Below are positions 8,418 through 36,401 of a stretch of DNA of 36,621 nucleotides, piece after piece. Each line of letters starts with the position of its first letter. The first letter of the stretch is position 1. The position numbers and the translations under genes are program-made. The notes beneath the pieces are model-generated. The model was not told the origin of the DNA. It saw nothing but the letters and a program-made list of their open reading frames with translations, and searched no databases. Origin of the DNA: Planctomycetota bacterium (lineage in GTDB: Bacteria > Planctomycetota > UBA8742 > JACQVU01 > JANLHZ01); contig JANLHZ010000054.1 in assembly GCA_024653775.1 (NCBI GenBank), positions 1 to 36,621 of the forward strand. The letters run 5' to 3'.

Positions 8418-9404
8418 TTAGACGACGTCCGACGTGCATTCGCAGAGAGCGTCCTCGCAGACGTTGACCTCGACGCTCACGTGAGAAAGATGCGGGATAA
8501 GGCATATCCGCTTTTTGAATTCCTCGGGCGCCACGTCCTTCGAGGAAACCACGGATACGATCACAGCGAAATCGCGGGAACTGACCCGCCACACGTGAAG
8601 GTCCGCGATTTTCGACTCGTCGCCAAGCTCGATGGCGTCTCTGATTTTCTGGCGGAGTTCCGCGCCGGCGTTTTCGTCGAGAAGAATCCGGGAAGTAACC
8701 TTGATAAGCCCGTAGGACCACCTGAGAATCAGCAGCCCGCCGACGATTCCCATCACCGGGTCCATAAACGTCCAGCCGAGATAGCGCCCCGTCAAGAGAG
8801 CGCCTAGCGCAAGCACGCTCGTCAACGCGTCCGCGATCACATGCAGATATGCCGCGCGATAGTTGTGATCCTGACGATCTTCGTGCTCGTGCCCTTCGTG
8901 CTCGTGATCTTCATGCTCGTGATCTTCGTGCTCGTGGGAATGACCTCCCGAGTGCAGAATCGCCACGCTTATCAGGTTTACGATCAACCCGATCGTCGTC
9001 ACGAGTATCGCCTCGTCGAAAGCGATCGCGATCGGCGAAATGATTCGCGTGACGGATTCATACATCATCCAGAGCGCCGCGACCGCGAGAAAAAGCGCGC
9101 TGGTGTAGCCGCCCAGCACGCCGAACTTACCGGTGCCGAATGAAAAGCGATCCGAGCCGGAAAGCCGTCGCGCAAGGAAGTACGCGACGAAGCTGATCGA
9201 AAGCGCGAGAGCGTGCGTTCCCATGTGCCACCCGTCGGCAAGGAGCGCCATCGAGCCTGTGATCGTCCCGAAAACGATTTCGACGATCATCGTCGCAGCA
9301 GTGAGCAGAACGACGAACAGCGTCCGCTTCTCGGCGCCCGAACTCACTGAGCCAAGATCGTGGTTATGTGAAAACTTATCGACGGTTTTTGCGTGTAATT
9401 CCAT
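8418..9404 (-). CDS. Cation diffusion facilitator, DmeF-like, with His-rich loop
   Basis: Inner-membrane divalent metal/proton antiporter of the CDF family, closest in motif style to the Co/Zn exporter DmeF. The second membrane segment reads ADGWHMGTHALAL and the fifth has HVIADALTSV, supplying the His/Asp transport-site ligands. Between segments four and five a loop contains repeated HEHED units made by 15-bp tandem repeats (about 8875-8940), a likely metal buffer. The C-terminal cytoplasmic domain ends in a cysteine-bearing tail (CEDALCEC). The start at 9404 (MELHAKTVDKFSHNHD) matches the DmeF N-terminus; the next upstream ATG at 9434 adds 10 residues and has no better ribosome site. It lies 54 bases after the methyltransferase gene, probably in the same transcript. 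Confidence 0.88.
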   Translation of the reverse strand: MELHAKTVDKFSHNHDLGSVSSGAEKRTLFVVLLTAATMIVEIVFGTITGSMALLADGWHMGTHALALSISFVAYFLARRLSGSDRFSFGTGKFGVLGGYTSALFLAVAALWMMYESVTRIISPIAIAFDEAILVTTIGLIVNLISVAILHSGGHSHEHEDHEHEDHEHEGHEHEDRQDHNYRAAYLHVIADALTSVLALGALLTGRYLGWTFMDPVMGIVGGLLILRWSYGLIKVTSRILLDENAGAELRQKIRDAIELGDESKIADLHVWRVSSRDFAVIVSVVSSKDVAPEEFKKRICLIPHLSHVSVEVNVCEDALCECTSDVV

Positions 9405-11164: not shown

Positions 11165-11192
11165 CGTTCCCTGCTCCCTGTTCCCTACTCCC
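11165..11192 (-). repeat. Heptamer tandem repeat after the giant lipoprotein gene
   Basis: On the minus strand four heptamers run consecutively: GGGAGTA, GGGAACA, GGGAGCA, GGGAACG. They begin 5 bases after the stop codon at 11198-11200. The same heptamer family occurs at 36381-36401, overlapping the stop of the right-edge gene. The rest of the 85-base gap before the dehydrogenase gene (11113-11197) shows nothing else. Confidence 0.8.
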
Positions 11193-11197
11193 TAAAA

Positions 11198-18221: not shown

Positions 18222-18917
18222 ATGGTCAAGCAGAAGCATGGTAAGAAGTATCGTGCGGCCGCCACGAAAGTGGACCAGGCAAAGGTATACGAGCTGGACG
18301 AGGCCGTGGGAGTGCTTCAGGGGCTGAAACTCGCAAAATTCGACGAGACCATCGAGTTCGTCGCAAAGCTCAATATCGATCCGAAAAAGGCCGAGCAGCG
18401 TATCAGAGGCGCGTTTTCGCTGCCGAACGGACTTGGTAAGGCCAAGAAGGTGATCGTGTTCGCGGAAGGCAAGGAGGCGGAAGACGCGAAGGCCGCCGGA
18501 GCCATCGAAACCGGCACGACGGACCTCGCAGAGAAGATAAAGAACGGCTGGATGGATTTCGATGTCGTCATCGCGACCAAGAATACCATGCGTTTCGTAC
18601 AACCGCTCGGCAAAACCCTCGGTCCTTCGGGCAAAATGCCGAACGTGAAAACTGGAACGGTGACGGAGAACGTCATCACGGCTGTAAAGGATTTCACCGC
18701 TGGTAAGCTGGAATTCAAAACGGACGATTTCGGCAATATAGCGGTCCCCGTCGGCAAGAAGAGTTTCGAGAAAAAGGCTCTGATCGAGAATATCGAGGCG
18801 TTTTACGAGCACATCCGGGGCCTCAAACCCGCAACCGTAAAGGGTGTTTTTATTCAGAAGACGTCGGTTTCGAGCACGATGGGGCCGGGTTTGCGGGTCG
18901 CTTTTGCCACAGTGTAG
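18222..18917 (+). CDS. rplA: 50S ribosomal protein L1
   Basis: L1 binds 23S rRNA at the mobile stalk near the E site and usually represses its own operon. The 231 residues match the family along their whole length, including the MVKQKHGKKYRAA start, the KAEQRIRGAFSLPNG segment and the LGPSGKMPN signature. The start at 18222 follows GGAGGAAAT; an upstream in-frame start at 18183 would add 13 residues outside the family pattern. rplK, which normally precedes it, is absent. The TAG stop lies in the first unit of a 15-bp tandem repeat. The gene heads the run rplA-rplJ-rplL-rpoB. Confidence 0.96.
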   Translation: MVKQKHGKKYRAAATKVDQAKVYELDEAVGVLQGLKLAKFDETIEFVAKLNIDPKKAEQRIRGAFSLPNGLGKAKKVIVFAEGKEAEDAKAAGAIETGTTDLAEKIKNGWMDFDVVIATKNTMRFVQPLGKTLGPSGKMPNVKTGTVTENVITAVKDFTAGKLEFKTDDFGNIAVPVGKKSFEKKALIENIEAFYEHIRGLKPATVKGVFIQKTSVSSTMGPGLRVAFATV

Positions 18918-18965
18918 ACAGGCGCTGTGTAGACGGGCACTGGGTAGACTGCCGCTGTTTAGACG
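18912..18965 (+). repeat. 15-bp tandem repeat across the rplA stop codon
   Basis: Units GTGTAGACAGGCGCT, GTGTAGACGGGCACT and GGGTAGACTGCCGCT, then a partial GTTTAGACG. Because the period is divisible by three, each unit places a TAG in the rplA frame, at 18915, 18930, 18945 and 18960. The gene's own stop is the first of these. It occupies more than half of the rplA-rplJ gap. Confidence 0.85.
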
Positions 18966-19005
18966 CTTTTATCATCAGGGAAATTCGAGGGAATAGAGGT
19001 CTTAG

Positions 19006-19650
19006 ATGGCAAAATCACTTAAAAAGGCCATTGTCGCTGAATACGTGGACTGGTTCAAGGACGTCGACGGCGGCGTGTTCATTGACTATCAGGGCATTTC
19101 CGCGAAGGACGCGTTCACGCTCCGGGCGCAGCTTCGGAAGTTCGGGCTTAGGATCAAGGTAGTGAAGAATTCTCTTTTCGAGGTCGCGATGGCGGAACTC
19201 GGACGTTTTGGCCGGGTCAGCGGCGACGACCGCGTTCAGCGCAAGAATGCCTCGAAAAGGCTCCATACAAGCCTGGAAGGGCCTGTGGCGGTGATTTTCA
19301 CCGAAGAAGAAGGAAGCGCGTTCCGGGTTGCGAAGACGCTTAAAAACGAGAGGAAGAAGCTCCCGAGGGTGAAAGTCAAGGGCGGATTCGCGGAAGGCGA
19401 ATTCGTGGACGAAAAGACGGTTTCGAAGGTTTGGACGGAAGTTCCGAGCAGGGAAGAACTTGTCGCCCAGGTCGCGGGAAGCATCGTCAATATGGGCGGC
19501 TCGCTGCTATCCGCGATTCTCGCGCCCGCGGCGCAGATCGCGAGTCAGATCGAAAAGCTCGGAGAAGAGAAGGAAAGCGCACCGTCGGAGGCTCCCGCTG
19601 CGTCGGAGGCGCCCGTTGCGGCAGAAGCGCCCGCGGGAGCGGAGGCTTAG
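19006..19650 (+). CDS. rplJ: 50S ribosomal protein L10
   Basis: L10 anchors the L7/L12 dimers at the stalk base and regulates its operon by binding the leader. The 214 residues include the N-terminal rRNA-binding domain (VFIDYQGISAKD, KVVKNSLFEVA), the LEGPVAVIF strand and the VPSREELVAQVAGS segment before the C-terminal L7/L12-binding helix. It is longer than the usual 165-180 residues. Part of the excess is an apparent basic insert at about 68-88 (VSGDDRVQRKNASK), and part is a C-terminal Ala/Pro/Glu tail with repeated EAP units. The start at 19006 is preceded by GAGGT. It lies directly ahead of rplL. Confidence 0.94.
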   Translation: MAKSLKKAIVAEYVDWFKDVDGGVFIDYQGISAKDAFTLRAQLRKFGLRIKVVKNSLFEVAMAELGRFGRVSGDDRVQRKNASKRLHTSLEGPVAVIFTEEEGSAFRVAKTLKNERKKLPRVKVKGGFAEGEFVDEKTVSKVWTEVPSREELVAQVAGSIVNMGGSLLSAILAPAAQIASQIEKLGEEKESAPSEAPAASEAPVAAEAPAGAEA

Positions 19651-23200: not shown

Positions 23201-23978
23201 TTCGCGACTCACGCAAGGCGACGATCTCCCGACCGGCGTGCTCGAGATGGTGAAGGTCTTCATCGCGACGAAACGAAGCCTCAGCGTAGGCGACAAGTTC
23301 GCCGGACGTCACGGAAACAAGGGCGTCGTAAGCAAGATCCTCCCCATCGAGGACATGCCGTTCCTCGAGGACGGAACTCCGGTGGATATGATCCTGAACC
23401 CGCTCGGCGTTCCAAGCCGAATGAACGTCGGTCAGGTGCTGGAGCTTCACCTCGGCTGGGCCGCGGGAAAGCTCGGCTTCCAGGCGATTCTTCCCGTGTT
23501 CAGCGGAACGACGGAAGCGGATATCGAAGTGTGCCTCAGAGAGGCGAAACTTCCCGAGTCCGGCAAGATCCAGCTTTACGACGGTCGCACCGGGGTTCCT
23601 TTCGATCAGCATGTGGCTGTGGGGCAGATGTATATGCTCAAACTGCATCACCTCGTGGACGACAAGGTCCATGCCCGCGCGACGGGACCGTACAGCCTTA
23701 TCACCCAGCAGCCGCTGGGCGGAAAGGCGCGATTCGGCGGACAGCGCTTCGGCGAGATGGAAGTATGGGCGCTCGAAGCCTACGGCGCGGCGCACATCCT
23801 GCAGGAGCTTCTCACGATCAAGAGCGACGATGTGGACGGTCGCACGAAGATCTATGAGAGCATGGTAAACGGACGAAACATCCTCGAGGCGGGCACGCCC
23901 ATGAGCTTCGAGGTTCTCACGAACGAGATCAAGGGTCTCGCACTGAATATGGTACTTGATAGAAAAAGACTGGGCTAG
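20256..23978 (+). CDS. rpoB: DNA-directed RNA polymerase beta subunit
   Basis: The 1240-residue beta subunit is colinear with the bacterial family. The rifampicin pocket at about residue 460-490 reads [24 protein letters not shown]; the residues equivalent to E. coli D516, H526, R529 and S531 are conserved, while F514 and M515 are both Val, N518 is Thr and K527 is Glu. [14 protein letters not shown] follows. The C-terminal part has [39 protein letters not shown] and a clamp end. Translation starts at a GTG after CGGAG. Normally rpoC follows within about 100 bases; here a double hairpin and two foreign-looking genes intervene. Confidence 0.97.
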
Positions 23979-24024: not shown

Positions 24025-24061
24025 CTACCAAGGAATAGATATCAACGGACCAAGTGTGGAT

Positions 24062-24790
24062 ATGAATCTTAGATACGAAATTGGTCAAACAACTAATTTA
24101 CTCGACAATACTGGAAATGGAGCGACAATTGCGCAGATTGAAAATGGTGCATTGTTATACTATAACCTAATGGGGCAGTTTGACAATTTACTGAATCCCA
24201 CAACTCGTGATCCAAATAAGGATATTCAAACATCCTGTTTCGAGCAATCAGCGACATTTGAGCTGTTATCAAAAATTGTTGGACTCGAAACCCATAGCGT
24301 ATACGTCGATCCACTTGTGGCAAAGAATAGAATTTACCCTATTTCCGTATTCGGTGATAGACCTGTTAATGGATTGAGACCCACTTACTGGAATGATGAG
24401 CCTGTGCGAAGTAGGGCATATTCAACACATGCATATAATGTTACTGGTAGCCTACAACTAGTTAGTTTAGGCGGTGACGTACTTTCCGATGATGATGGCT
24501 CGACTGGCGCGAAGTCAGTCTATGCAGGCGGATTCGTTTATGATGCACTTTTTGCCTACGGAGGGTTTCCAGTGAATCCCACTTTCAGGAATCCCGGACC
24601 CTCTGCTTTAAGTAATGAAGTTTACTTCTGGCGATGGATGATCGATAGCAGCACTCTTGCGATCGATGATTTAACAACCGTGAATATAGATGAACAAGAA
24701 AATGACATCCAGTCAGTAATAAACCCCGTTGGACAGCGCAGTGAAGCAAGGAACACAGGCCACAAAGTACTGTCTTTGCGAATCCACTGA
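24062..24790 (+). CDS. Transglutaminase-like protein, possibly 5'-truncated
   Basis: 242 residues from the ATG at 24062; an in-frame GTG two codons earlier (24056) is also possible. A transglutaminase/papain-like catalytic layout can be read: C59 in SCFEQSATFELLSKIVGLETH, H123 in YSTHAYNV, and D161 in GFVYDALF. This assignment is tentative. There is no signal peptide, and the open frame continues upstream about 20 codons to a stop inside the repeat after rpoB, so it may be the C-terminal part of a longer secreted protein. Base composition is clearly AT-richer than rpoB or rpoC, with many TTA, ATA and AAT codons. It precedes a lipoprotein gene by 21 bases. No strong ribosome site is seen, adding to the suspicion of truncation. 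Confidence 0.55.
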   Translation: MNLRYEIGQTTNLLDNTGNGATIAQIENGALLYYNLMGQFDNLLNPTTRDPNKDIQTSCFEQSATFELLSKIVGLETHSVYVDPLVAKNRIYPISVFGDRPVNGLRPTYWNDEPVRSRAYSTHAYNVTGSLQLVSLGGDVLSDDDGSTGAKSVYAGGFVYDALFAYGGFPVNPTFRNPGPSALSNEVYFWRWMIDSSTLAIDDLTTVNIDEQENDIQSVINPVGQRSEARNTGHKVLSLRIH

Positions 24791-24811
24791 TAAATCGGAA
24801 AGGCATGAAAC

Positions 24812-26272
24812 ATGTATACTTATCCTTTCACTTCTTCAAAAAAAAATATCACGATTGCTGCCTTACAAATTCTTTTCTCATTATCGCTCTTAGTGTTTGT
24901 CGGGTGCATAAGCGGATCCGACGGTAAAAGCGAGCATTCCGCGAGCACCCCAAATAGCGCACGTGATTCCGAGGGAAAAATAAATGATGTCGACTCGAAT
25001 TCCACTGTCATGGCGTCGATGATTCGCAGAGATACTGACTCAGTGTCTTATCTCAGCGAGGAAGTCGAGAAGTCGTTATCATTCATTCTTTTTGAGATCG
25101 ACAACATTTCACCGGAAGATATTCAGCGTGCCGACGAATTGGGAATAGGCCTGCCTCCGGACCTAAGTTGTCCATTGATTGAAGGGTTTGACTTGGATCA
25201 ACCAGCGATTACCGATATTCGAATGAGTAATTCCGGGGTGGAGGAACTGTATCGCTTCAATTCGAGTCCGTATTTTAAAAAAAGCGGGAAAGTGCTTTTT
25301 CCTATGGTTTCAACAGTAAGGTATTTCGATAACAGAAGGATAGAGATTCACACTACTGTATACAGCGGCATTGATGCGTGCAAAAGGGCTTGGCTTGCCC
25401 TCGCGACTCATTACCGGTTGCCCTCCGCTCTCGTGGCGATTCCTCTTTCAGAGGTTGGTGTTACTTTGCTTGGTGAATCTATTTTCTATACTAATTTCGA
25501 GGATTCAAAAAATTATTTAGGCGCATATTACGCTTATCACAACGTGTTTATAGAAGTTCGAATACATCAAACCGACCCGCAGTATCTTGTCGATACAATA
25601 GTGTCAATCGACGATTATTTTTTCAGGCAACCCCTCGTTGAAACTCTCGATGACAGCGAATTCGCGCCTGTTATTAATCGCTTCGAACTTGAAAATAATC
25701 GAATCCACATCGGGGAGCGCTCGCATATTCGCCTCGAAGTCACCAATCCCGATTCAGAGCTTTCCGTTCCCGATCATTCCCTTCTCGAAGCGGGAATCGG
25801 GGTGAACTGGAGCGGGGACAAACCTTCCTGGCTTCGAATTACTGAGGGTATCGATGGACATCCATGGTATAGCCTAAAGGAAGACAGCGACTATGGAAAC
25901 GTGTTTGTATATCCATTCGAGGAGGAATTCGTTCAAACTGCCAGAGTGGTTGATGGAGTAAGGGAGGTTGAAACTGTTAGCGCCGAACCGGGGACATATC
26001 CGCTCAGGATTACGGTTTTTAACGAGCGTGGACTGACAGCAAGCGCGGAAATTGAAGTAGTGGTGCTTCCGGAGCGCGAGCGACCGGACGATTCCGATGA
26101 CGAATCGGACGAAGACCACAACCGAGGTCACGGGAACGACGACGACCGTCACGATGAAGATAACCCCGGTCAAGGTCACGGAAATCAGGGTGATGACCAC
26201 GACAGAGGCCACGGAAATGACGATGACCGCCACGATGAGGATAATCCGGGACGCGAAAACCGAGATCCGTAG
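24812..26272 (+). CDS. Lipoprotein with repetitive Asp/His/Gly/Asn-rich tail
   Basis: 486 residues; not a family I recognise. The signal peptide (10-31) ends in FVGC, with the lipidated cysteine at C32. Residues about 70-290 are mixed alpha/beta with no known motif. Residues about 295-425 look like one Ig-like sandwich (PVINRFELENN, GTYPLRITVFNERG). The tail from about 430 is built from charged units and contains RGHGNDDDRHDEDNPG twice (438-453 and 465-480), a plausible divalent-metal-binding or linker segment. A closely similar tail is encoded on the minus strand at the right edge of the window. The body of the gene is AT-rich like the preceding gene, while the tail is GC-richer. The ribosome site is GGAAAGG. 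It is inserted between rpoB and rpoC. Confidence 0.75.
   Translation: MYTYPFTSSKKNITIAALQILFSLSLLVFVGCISGSDGKSEHSASTPNSARDSEGKINDVDSNSTVMASMIRRDTDSVSYLSEEVEKSLSFILFEIDNISPEDIQRADELGIGLPPDLSCPLIEGFDLDQPAITDIRMSNSGVEELYRFNSSPYFKKSGKVLFPMVSTVRYFDNRRIEIHTTVYSGIDACKRAWLALATHYRLPSALVAIPLSEVGVTLLGESIFYTNFEDSKNYLGAYYAYHNVFIEVRIHQTDPQYLVDTIVSIDDYFFRQPLVETLDDSEFAPVINRFELENNRIHIGERSHIRLEVTNPDSELSVPDHSLLEAGIGVNWSGDKPSWLRITEGIDGHPWYSLKEDSDYGNVFVYPFEEEFVQTARVVDGVREVETVSAEPGTYPLRITVFNERGLTASAEIEVVVLPERERPDDSDDESDEDHNRGHGNDDDRHDEDNPGQGHGNQGDDHDRGHGNDDDRHDEDNPGRENRDP
26123..26251 (+). repeat. In-frame repeats of the DHGN-rich tail
   Basis: Two 48-base units at 26123-26170 and 26204-26251 encode the identical 16-residue string RGHGNDDDRHDEDNPG but differ at several third positions, so the protein sequence seems to be conserved by selection rather than by very recent duplication. 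A 15-residue version is encoded at 36424-36468 on the minus strand. Confidence 0.85.
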
Positions 26273-26329
26273 GTCTAACACCGTTGTTGAAATTACGTTC
26301 ATGAAAATTGAAAGGGAATGGAGATAAAA

Positions 26330-30425
<4,096 letters not shown>

Positions 30426-30427
<2 letters not shown>

Positions 30428-30474
30428 AGATTTTTGAATTGGAAGATTTTTCAAGTGGAAGATTTTTTGAATTG
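30426..30474 (+). repeat. 16-bp tandem repeat across the rpoC stop codon
   Basis: Units GAAGATTTTTGAATTG (30426-30441), GAAGATTTTTCAAGTG (30442-30457) and GAAGATTTTTTGAATTG (30458-30474). The first unit begins on the second base of the TGA stop (30425-30427). The T-runs come without a stable hairpin. The repeat is AT-rich in a GC-rich setting. Confidence 0.85.
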
Positions 30475-30480
30475 GTTTGA

Positions 30481-36336: not shown

Positions 36337-36380
36337 GATAGTCAGTGGTTGGAGTTTCTAAATCCGAAATCACTTGCCCT

Positions 36381-36401
36381 CTACTCTCTACTCCCTGTTC
36401 C
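36381..36401 (-). repeat. Heptamer tandem repeat at the stop of the right-edge gene
   Basis: On the plus strand CTACTCT, CTACTCC and CTGTTCC run in series; on the minus strand this is the GGGAACA/GGGAGTA family also found at 11165-11192. The TAG stop of the minus-strand gene (36388-36390) lies inside the array. Confidence 0.7.

Follow-up and report, generated by a model that had tools for sequence, protein, structure and literature searches.

The rplA gene (18222-18917, plus strand; Pfam PF00687, E 2.1e-55) encodes ribosomal protein L1, of 231 amino acids, and ends in a TAG codon at 18915-18917 on the plus strand. It is followed by a spacer of 88 nt (18918-19005, plus strand), the longest of the 29 compared, and then by rplJ for ribosomal protein L10 (19006-19650, plus strand; Pfam PF00466, E 4.7e-16). 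The window, by which we mean the whole stretch of DNA analysed, is one contig of 36,621 bases from a genome of 5.42 Mb in 331 contigs. Within it Pfam identifies rplA, rplJ, rplL, rpoB, rpoC, rpsL and rpsG, and no tRNA genes were found. The best two named matches of L1 come from MAGs labelled Kiritimatiellaceae (51%) and Verrucomicrobia (49%), which probably places the genome near these groups. TAG ends four of the seven core genes in the window (rplA, rplJ, rpoB and rpsG, the others being rplL, rpoC and rpsL) and 240 of the 905 genes sampled in the genome.

Across the stop codon of rplA lies a 15-bp tandem array of 3.5 degenerate copies (18912-18964, plus strand; TRF period 15, 78% matches, score 64), which begins at the last sense codon of rplA and extends into the spacer. 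Its units read, in order, GTGTAGACAGGCGCT, GTGTAGACGGGCACT, GGGTAGACTGCCGCT and GTTTAGAC, the last being partial. TAG recurs at 18915, 18930, 18945 and 18960, always in the frame of rplA, so that the normal stop at codon 0 is joined by a second TAG at codon +5 (18930-18932), a third at +10 (18945-18947) and a fourth, in the partial copy, at +15 (18960-18962), all on the plus strand. TRF and the sequence thus bear out the initial annotation, which had described a 15-bp repeat giving rplA four in-frame TAG codons, the first of them the normal stop. Given an array that starts on the stop and has a period divisible by three, nothing further is improbable about four stops in one frame.

The array is above what chance would produce, as a dinucleotide-shuffled sample rarely reaches its score, with one TRF row at 64 or more per 1.33 Mb. 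Arrays of this strength are nevertheless frequent in the genome compared with the shuffles, at 80 in 1.33 Mb or about one per 17 kb, and the window alone contains five TRF rows at this threshold. Periods divisible by three are not favoured outside genes: among arrays scoring at least 40, such periods (multiples of 7 left out) account for 21 of 144 noncoding arrays and 125 of 184 coding ones. Assembly stutter is an unlikely source, because the copies of the array differ. We also found no sign of extra constraint on TAG within the array. The motif TAGAC is identical in all four copies; two of the eight unit positions common to the four copies vary, and the probability that both lie outside TAG is C(5,2)/C(8,2) = 0.36, while a ten-position version of the same arithmetic, in which four positions vary, gives a chance of 0.17.

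The unit appears to be private to this locus. Searching the genome at the DNA level with a 66-nt query across the array returned only the array itself at E≤10, and the two exact matches of the unit core in the genome both lie inside it. With up to one mismatch the core occurs in 21 places, against 61 for its backward control. Since these searches yielded no second copy, membership of a dispersed repeat family was rejected for the 15-mer.

Other features of the window were recorded alongside. Near the 3′ end of rplJ, an 18-bp array of 2.9 copies (19583-19634) lies in what, judged by eye, is an Ala/Pro/Glu-rich tail. The top-scoring array of the window is another 15-bp repeat (8876-8936, 4.1 copies, score 101), which lies within a predicted minus-strand gene. 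The rpoB and rpoC genes are usually directly adjacent; here two ORFs of 244 and 486 amino acids (24056-26272) stand between the end of rpoB at 23978 and the start of rpoC at 26318. Neither has a Pfam match at E≤0.01, and the gene calls of the hexamer scorer retain the 486-amino-acid ORF only in part.

The rplA-rplJ spacer in relatives and its functional readings

We searched 40 relatives, one genome per species, obtained an L1 match in 37 and retrieved the rplA locus for 29. The nearest is a single genome of the same order with an L1 identity of 56%. A period-15 array at the rplA stop is present in none of the 29, and none of their rplA spacers carries a row of TAGs at the spacing of the array, although these relatives are distant, at 57% L1 identity or less. 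Short TRF matches near the rplA stop occur in four of the 29 (2.0-2.4 copies, period 8 to 12, score 31-38), and only the period-8 match of L014 touches the stop. Among loci from named records, 44 of 46 were readable past the rplA stop; none contained the 15-mer, by eye or by TRF, and two showed weak 7-mers with scores of 30 and 33. Conservation of the array was rejected on its absence from these 29 relatives and 44 loci.

The comparison also suggests how the locus may have looked before the array arose. Against the 88 nt of this spacer, the relatives have between -1 and 52 nt, with a median of 10; rplJ was located in 28 of the 29, its start being set approximately at the earliest ATG in an ORF of 120 codons or more. 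Subtracting three 15-nt copies would shorten the spacer here to 43 nt, within the range of the relatives. By eye, L1 of the same-order relative ends at most one residue from the same place, and L1 of the other relatives ends a few residues earlier or several later. Because the spacer is long here and the L1 end of the same-order relative nearly coincides, the ancestral stop is probably the first TAG, from which the array would have grown into the spacer. The ancestral one-copy state is a reconstruction from the spacers of distant relatives.

In E. coli, the L10 leader is located in the rplA-rplJ spacer. The array occupies the same place, and the invariance of TAGAC in its four copies is what a binding site would predict, so the array could regulate rplJ-rplL in cis, much as the L10 leader does, or provide repeated sites for a protein that binds RNA or DNA. 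The scans of the region argue against both. No Rfam family matches 18700-19120 at E≤10, the spacer remains without a match when the whole window is searched at gathering score, and the ribosomal L10 leader model has no match upstream of rplJ. Folding was not significantly better than in shuffled sequences (z -0.22, 0.14 and -1.55, the middle value being that of the whole spacer), and the spacer showed no site resembling a promoter or terminator. RNA structure or an Rfam leader was rejected for the array on the fold and Rfam scans, and a promoter or terminator on the site scan. Moreover, none of the 28 spacers measured among the 29 relatives exceeds 52 nt, and a second site was not found in the genome. 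We therefore regard a regulatory or binding-site role as highly improbable.

The initial annotation had also proposed that the repeat guards against read-through, in which case selection would keep the repeated TAGs to halt ribosomes that read through rplA before they reach rplJ. Four in-frame TAGs within 16 codons of a gene that is presumably highly expressed would fit such a role, and in only four of 905 genes, rplA included, does the same stop codon appear four times in frame over such a stretch of 16 codons. However, the extra stops follow of themselves from a period of 15, and the genome as a whole has no in-frame excess: at codons +1 to +15 of 905 genes we counted 512 stops in frame against 497 and 565 in the other frames, and downstream of the 240 TAG-ending genes 130 in frame against 138 and 154. 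On this count, selection for backup stops was rejected. Six of the 29 relatives have at least two extra in-frame stops within 20 codons (L004, L010, L017, L027, L029 and L030), yet none has four at the spacing of the array, several of the extra stops lie inside rplJ, and the array itself is absent from all 29. TAG would also be an odd choice, given that UAG is described in the accessible text of one study as the rarest stop, almost absent, in highly expressed bacterial genes (PMC8954436). Finally, the accessible text of Ho and Hurst reports no evidence of selection for additional downstream stops in eubacteria (PMC6764699). Given the frame counts, the relatives and this report, the proposed guard function is not upheld, and we consider it extremely unlikely.

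Tandem arrays at gene 3′ ends across the genome

Arrays abutting the stops of rpoC, a 1961-amino-acid gene for a putative lipoprotein and the gene at the right edge had been taken in the initial annotation as similar to the one at rplA. All three exist, but they differ in kind, being a unique 16-mer, a dispersed heptamer and a weak heptamer of 2.1 copies. The 16-bp array at rpoC (30426-30475, plus strand; 3.1 copies, TRF score 77) covers the last two bases of the stop at 30425-30427, and its unit occurs nowhere else in the genome at up to one mismatch. The heptamer array at 11166-11193 (minus strand, called by TRF) lies 4 nt past the stop of the 1961-amino-acid gene and is a copy of the dispersed GGGAGTA/GGGAACA family, which has 38 overlapping matches at up to one mismatch, its own included. 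The heptamer at 36379-36393 (minus strand) contains the stop of the right-edge ORF, but its TRF score of 30 is weak, since shuffled sequence yields 320 rows at 30 or more per 1.33 Mb; its neighbours continue the heptamer phase by eye.

The initial annotation had further suggested that gene 3′ ends may be preferred sites for such arrays, and had named a lack of enrichment at stops as the finding that would count against this. We counted arrays in a first sample of 575 genes that included the window and an independent second sample of 332 genes, pooled to 90 pieces with 1,332,168 bases and 907 genes, ten all-N stretches being left out. Genes were called by a hexamer scorer, which places some starts wrongly and misses some genes, stops being the more reliable. 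At a score of at least 30, arrays of all periods touch 58 of 907 stops against 20 of 905 starts; an array is present no more than 30 nt away at 108 of 906 stops and at 1346 of 26622 random positions. Enrichment at stops is thus present, and it is carried by arrays with a period of 7 or a multiple, of which 49 touch stops and 12 touch starts; for other periods the corresponding counts are 9 (of 907) and 8 (of 905).

Permutation of array positions within gaps of 40-1000 nt, in 300 rounds, gave the same division. In the pooled sample at a score of at least 30, 34 period-7 arrays touch stops against 15.9 expected (reached in 0 of 300 rounds), while 7 arrays of other periods do so against 6.2 (126 of 300). 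The stop overlap of the first sample exceeds expectation, at 30 against 15.7 (0 of 300), and so does that of the second sample for all periods at 30 or more, at 11 against 5.6 (0 of 300). The preference for gene ends therefore holds for period-7 arrays and is not clear for other periods. At higher scores the latter provide a weak hint: at 40 or more, 6 touch stops against 4.0 expected (37 of 300) and 11 lie within 30 nt against 8.3 (31 of 300); at 60 or more, the stops that they touch are 6 of 907 and the starts 3 of 905, and the 30-nt distance takes in 10 of 906 stops against 171 of 26,622 random positions. These counts are small and include the arrays at rplA and rpoC.

On these data, the rplA array could be one case of a genome-wide mechanism that places tandem arrays preferentially at gene 3′ ends. 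The excess at stops over starts and random positions, the permutations of both samples and the small surplus of non-heptamers at 40 or more all speak for it. Yet the effect is carried by period 7, with other periods at expectation at 30 or more, and the all-period effect of the second sample is gone at higher scores (4 against 3.8 at 40 or more, 3 against 2.3 at 50 or more). Nor are arrays in same-direction gaps of the first sample closer to the stop than to the start (46 of 86, p=0.59). As other periods show no clear preference, neither the rplA 15-mer nor the rpoC 16-mer is accounted for by the stop preference of the heptamers, and we hold such a placing mechanism to be very unlikely as the source of the rplA array.

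The stop overlap of the heptamers may itself have a simple origin. In the accessible text of MacGregor on TAACTGA repeats, an ORF that enters an array with stops terminates there (PMC4679880). We modelled this by reinserting at random the 114 heptamer arrays that lie beside stops and ending each gene at the first in-frame stop. The number touching stops was 8.3, 19.1, 24.6 and 32.6 when 0, 15, 30 and 60 nt of gene end were allowed, against 35 observed. At 60 nt, equivalent to about 20 altered codons, 32 of 100 runs reached the observed number, which further weakens the case for a placing mechanism; at 30 nt or less, 0 of 100 did. Because reinsertion at this tolerance reproduces the overlap and ORFs end in stop-bearing arrays, much or all of the heptamer preference may be mechanical, unless the tolerance is about 30 nt or less. 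Of the 35 stop-touching heptamer arrays, 18 start between -1 and +5 of the first base of the stop. This, like the shortfall of reinsertion at 30 nt or less, would be compatible with heptamer arrays of many unrelated units being seeded at or after translation stops, with the rplA 15-mer and rpoC 16-mer as failed or altered products; such an origin seems to us very doubtful.

The heptamers form a class of their own in this genome. The first sample, with about 866 kb readable, contains 36 perfect runs of at least three heptamers, 34 of them noncoding. These are the lag-7 runs in a scan of that sample for fixed-lag runs of 14 or more matches, in which noncoding runs numbered zero at lags 4-6, 8-13, 15 and 17; lag 14 gave 16 runs, presumably of the same class as the heptamers. 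Units seen in the sampled stretches (for example L139, L113, L089 and L135) include GAGTTAA, GAATTAC, GTAGTCA-like, GATTTTT, GGGAGTA and GGATCGA, and some arrays shift from one unit to another along their length. Longer intergenic repeats with periods of 26, 94, 109 and 30 occur in L108, L097, L093 and L109, at or just past stops and with palindromic-looking parts. Three tandem copies of GAGTTAA have 92 overlapping matches in the genome at up to one mismatch and none in the 40 relatives, so this expansion is not common to the relatives compared. Another member of the phylum, G030, carries a different heptamer expansion: its AATTGAG array, the backward control of the GAGTTAA query, has 11 + 12 matches there, none in the other 39 relatives and five in the genome under study.

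Origin of the rplA array and comparison with known repeats

We consider the array highly likely to be a degenerate minisatellite, local to the rplA-rplJ spacer, and a by-product of duplication that is probably neutral. A stretch of about 15 nt holding the rplA stop would have been copied in tandem, through slippage during replication or through unequal exchange; the number of copies would then have risen to about 3.5, and these would have drifted since. As the stretch held the stop and its length was a multiple of three, TAG would return in the rplA frame with each copy; the first copy would keep the stop and leave the protein unchanged, and the change would be tolerated. A by-product of slippage at the gene end had been the other suggestion of the initial annotation, and it stands as the simplest reading, with the mechanism of duplication, its order and its neutrality being what we infer from the present sequence. 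Four in-frame stops, however striking, can thus follow from nothing more than a tandem duplication with a period divisible by three. This reading also separates two matters: the 15-mer, a by-product with a unique unit, and the heptamers, a class spread over the genome that overlaps stop codons more often than start codons.

Heptanucleotide repeats of cyanobacteria are known as STRR. Related repeats have been described with the unit TAACTGA in Beggiatoaceae (PMC4679880) and GGGNATC in Xanthomonas and Nostoc (PMC4692102), and in two Xanthomonas and one Nostoc, according to the accessible text of the latter study, most downstream repeats sit on the coding strand within 50 bp of the stop. As far as these sources describe them, the heptamers of our genome resemble all three in being intergenic and tandem, with some overlapping stops or lying just past them. 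They are a kind known from other bacteria and reported near stops, here in another genome; our literature search found no paper on intergenic heptamer tandem repeats in Verrucomicrobia. The rplA array differs from this kind. Its period is 15, not 7 or 14, as that of the rpoC array is 16, and its unit is unique and not dispersed: no second place was found for it, in contrast to the 92 matches of the GAGTTAA triplet and the 38 of GGGAGTA/GGGAACA.

With the additional stops of yeasts and other eukaryotes, as presented in the accessible parts of PMC1088959 and PMC6764699, the rplA case shares extra in-frame stops shortly past the primary one. It differs from them in that a genome-wide in-frame excess is lacking, the relatives compared have no such array and the spacing of the stops is set by the repeat unit. 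The closest likeness is to bacterial minisatellites and VNTR-like intergenic duplications, which also consist of short head-to-tail units in few copies, local and with no dispersed relatives found; the head-to-tail copies at rplA are above chance, with a score of 64 that shuffles reached once per 1.33 Mb. Unlike the usual members of that group, the rplA array starts on a stop codon and has a period divisible by three, and for this reason the stop is copied in frame.
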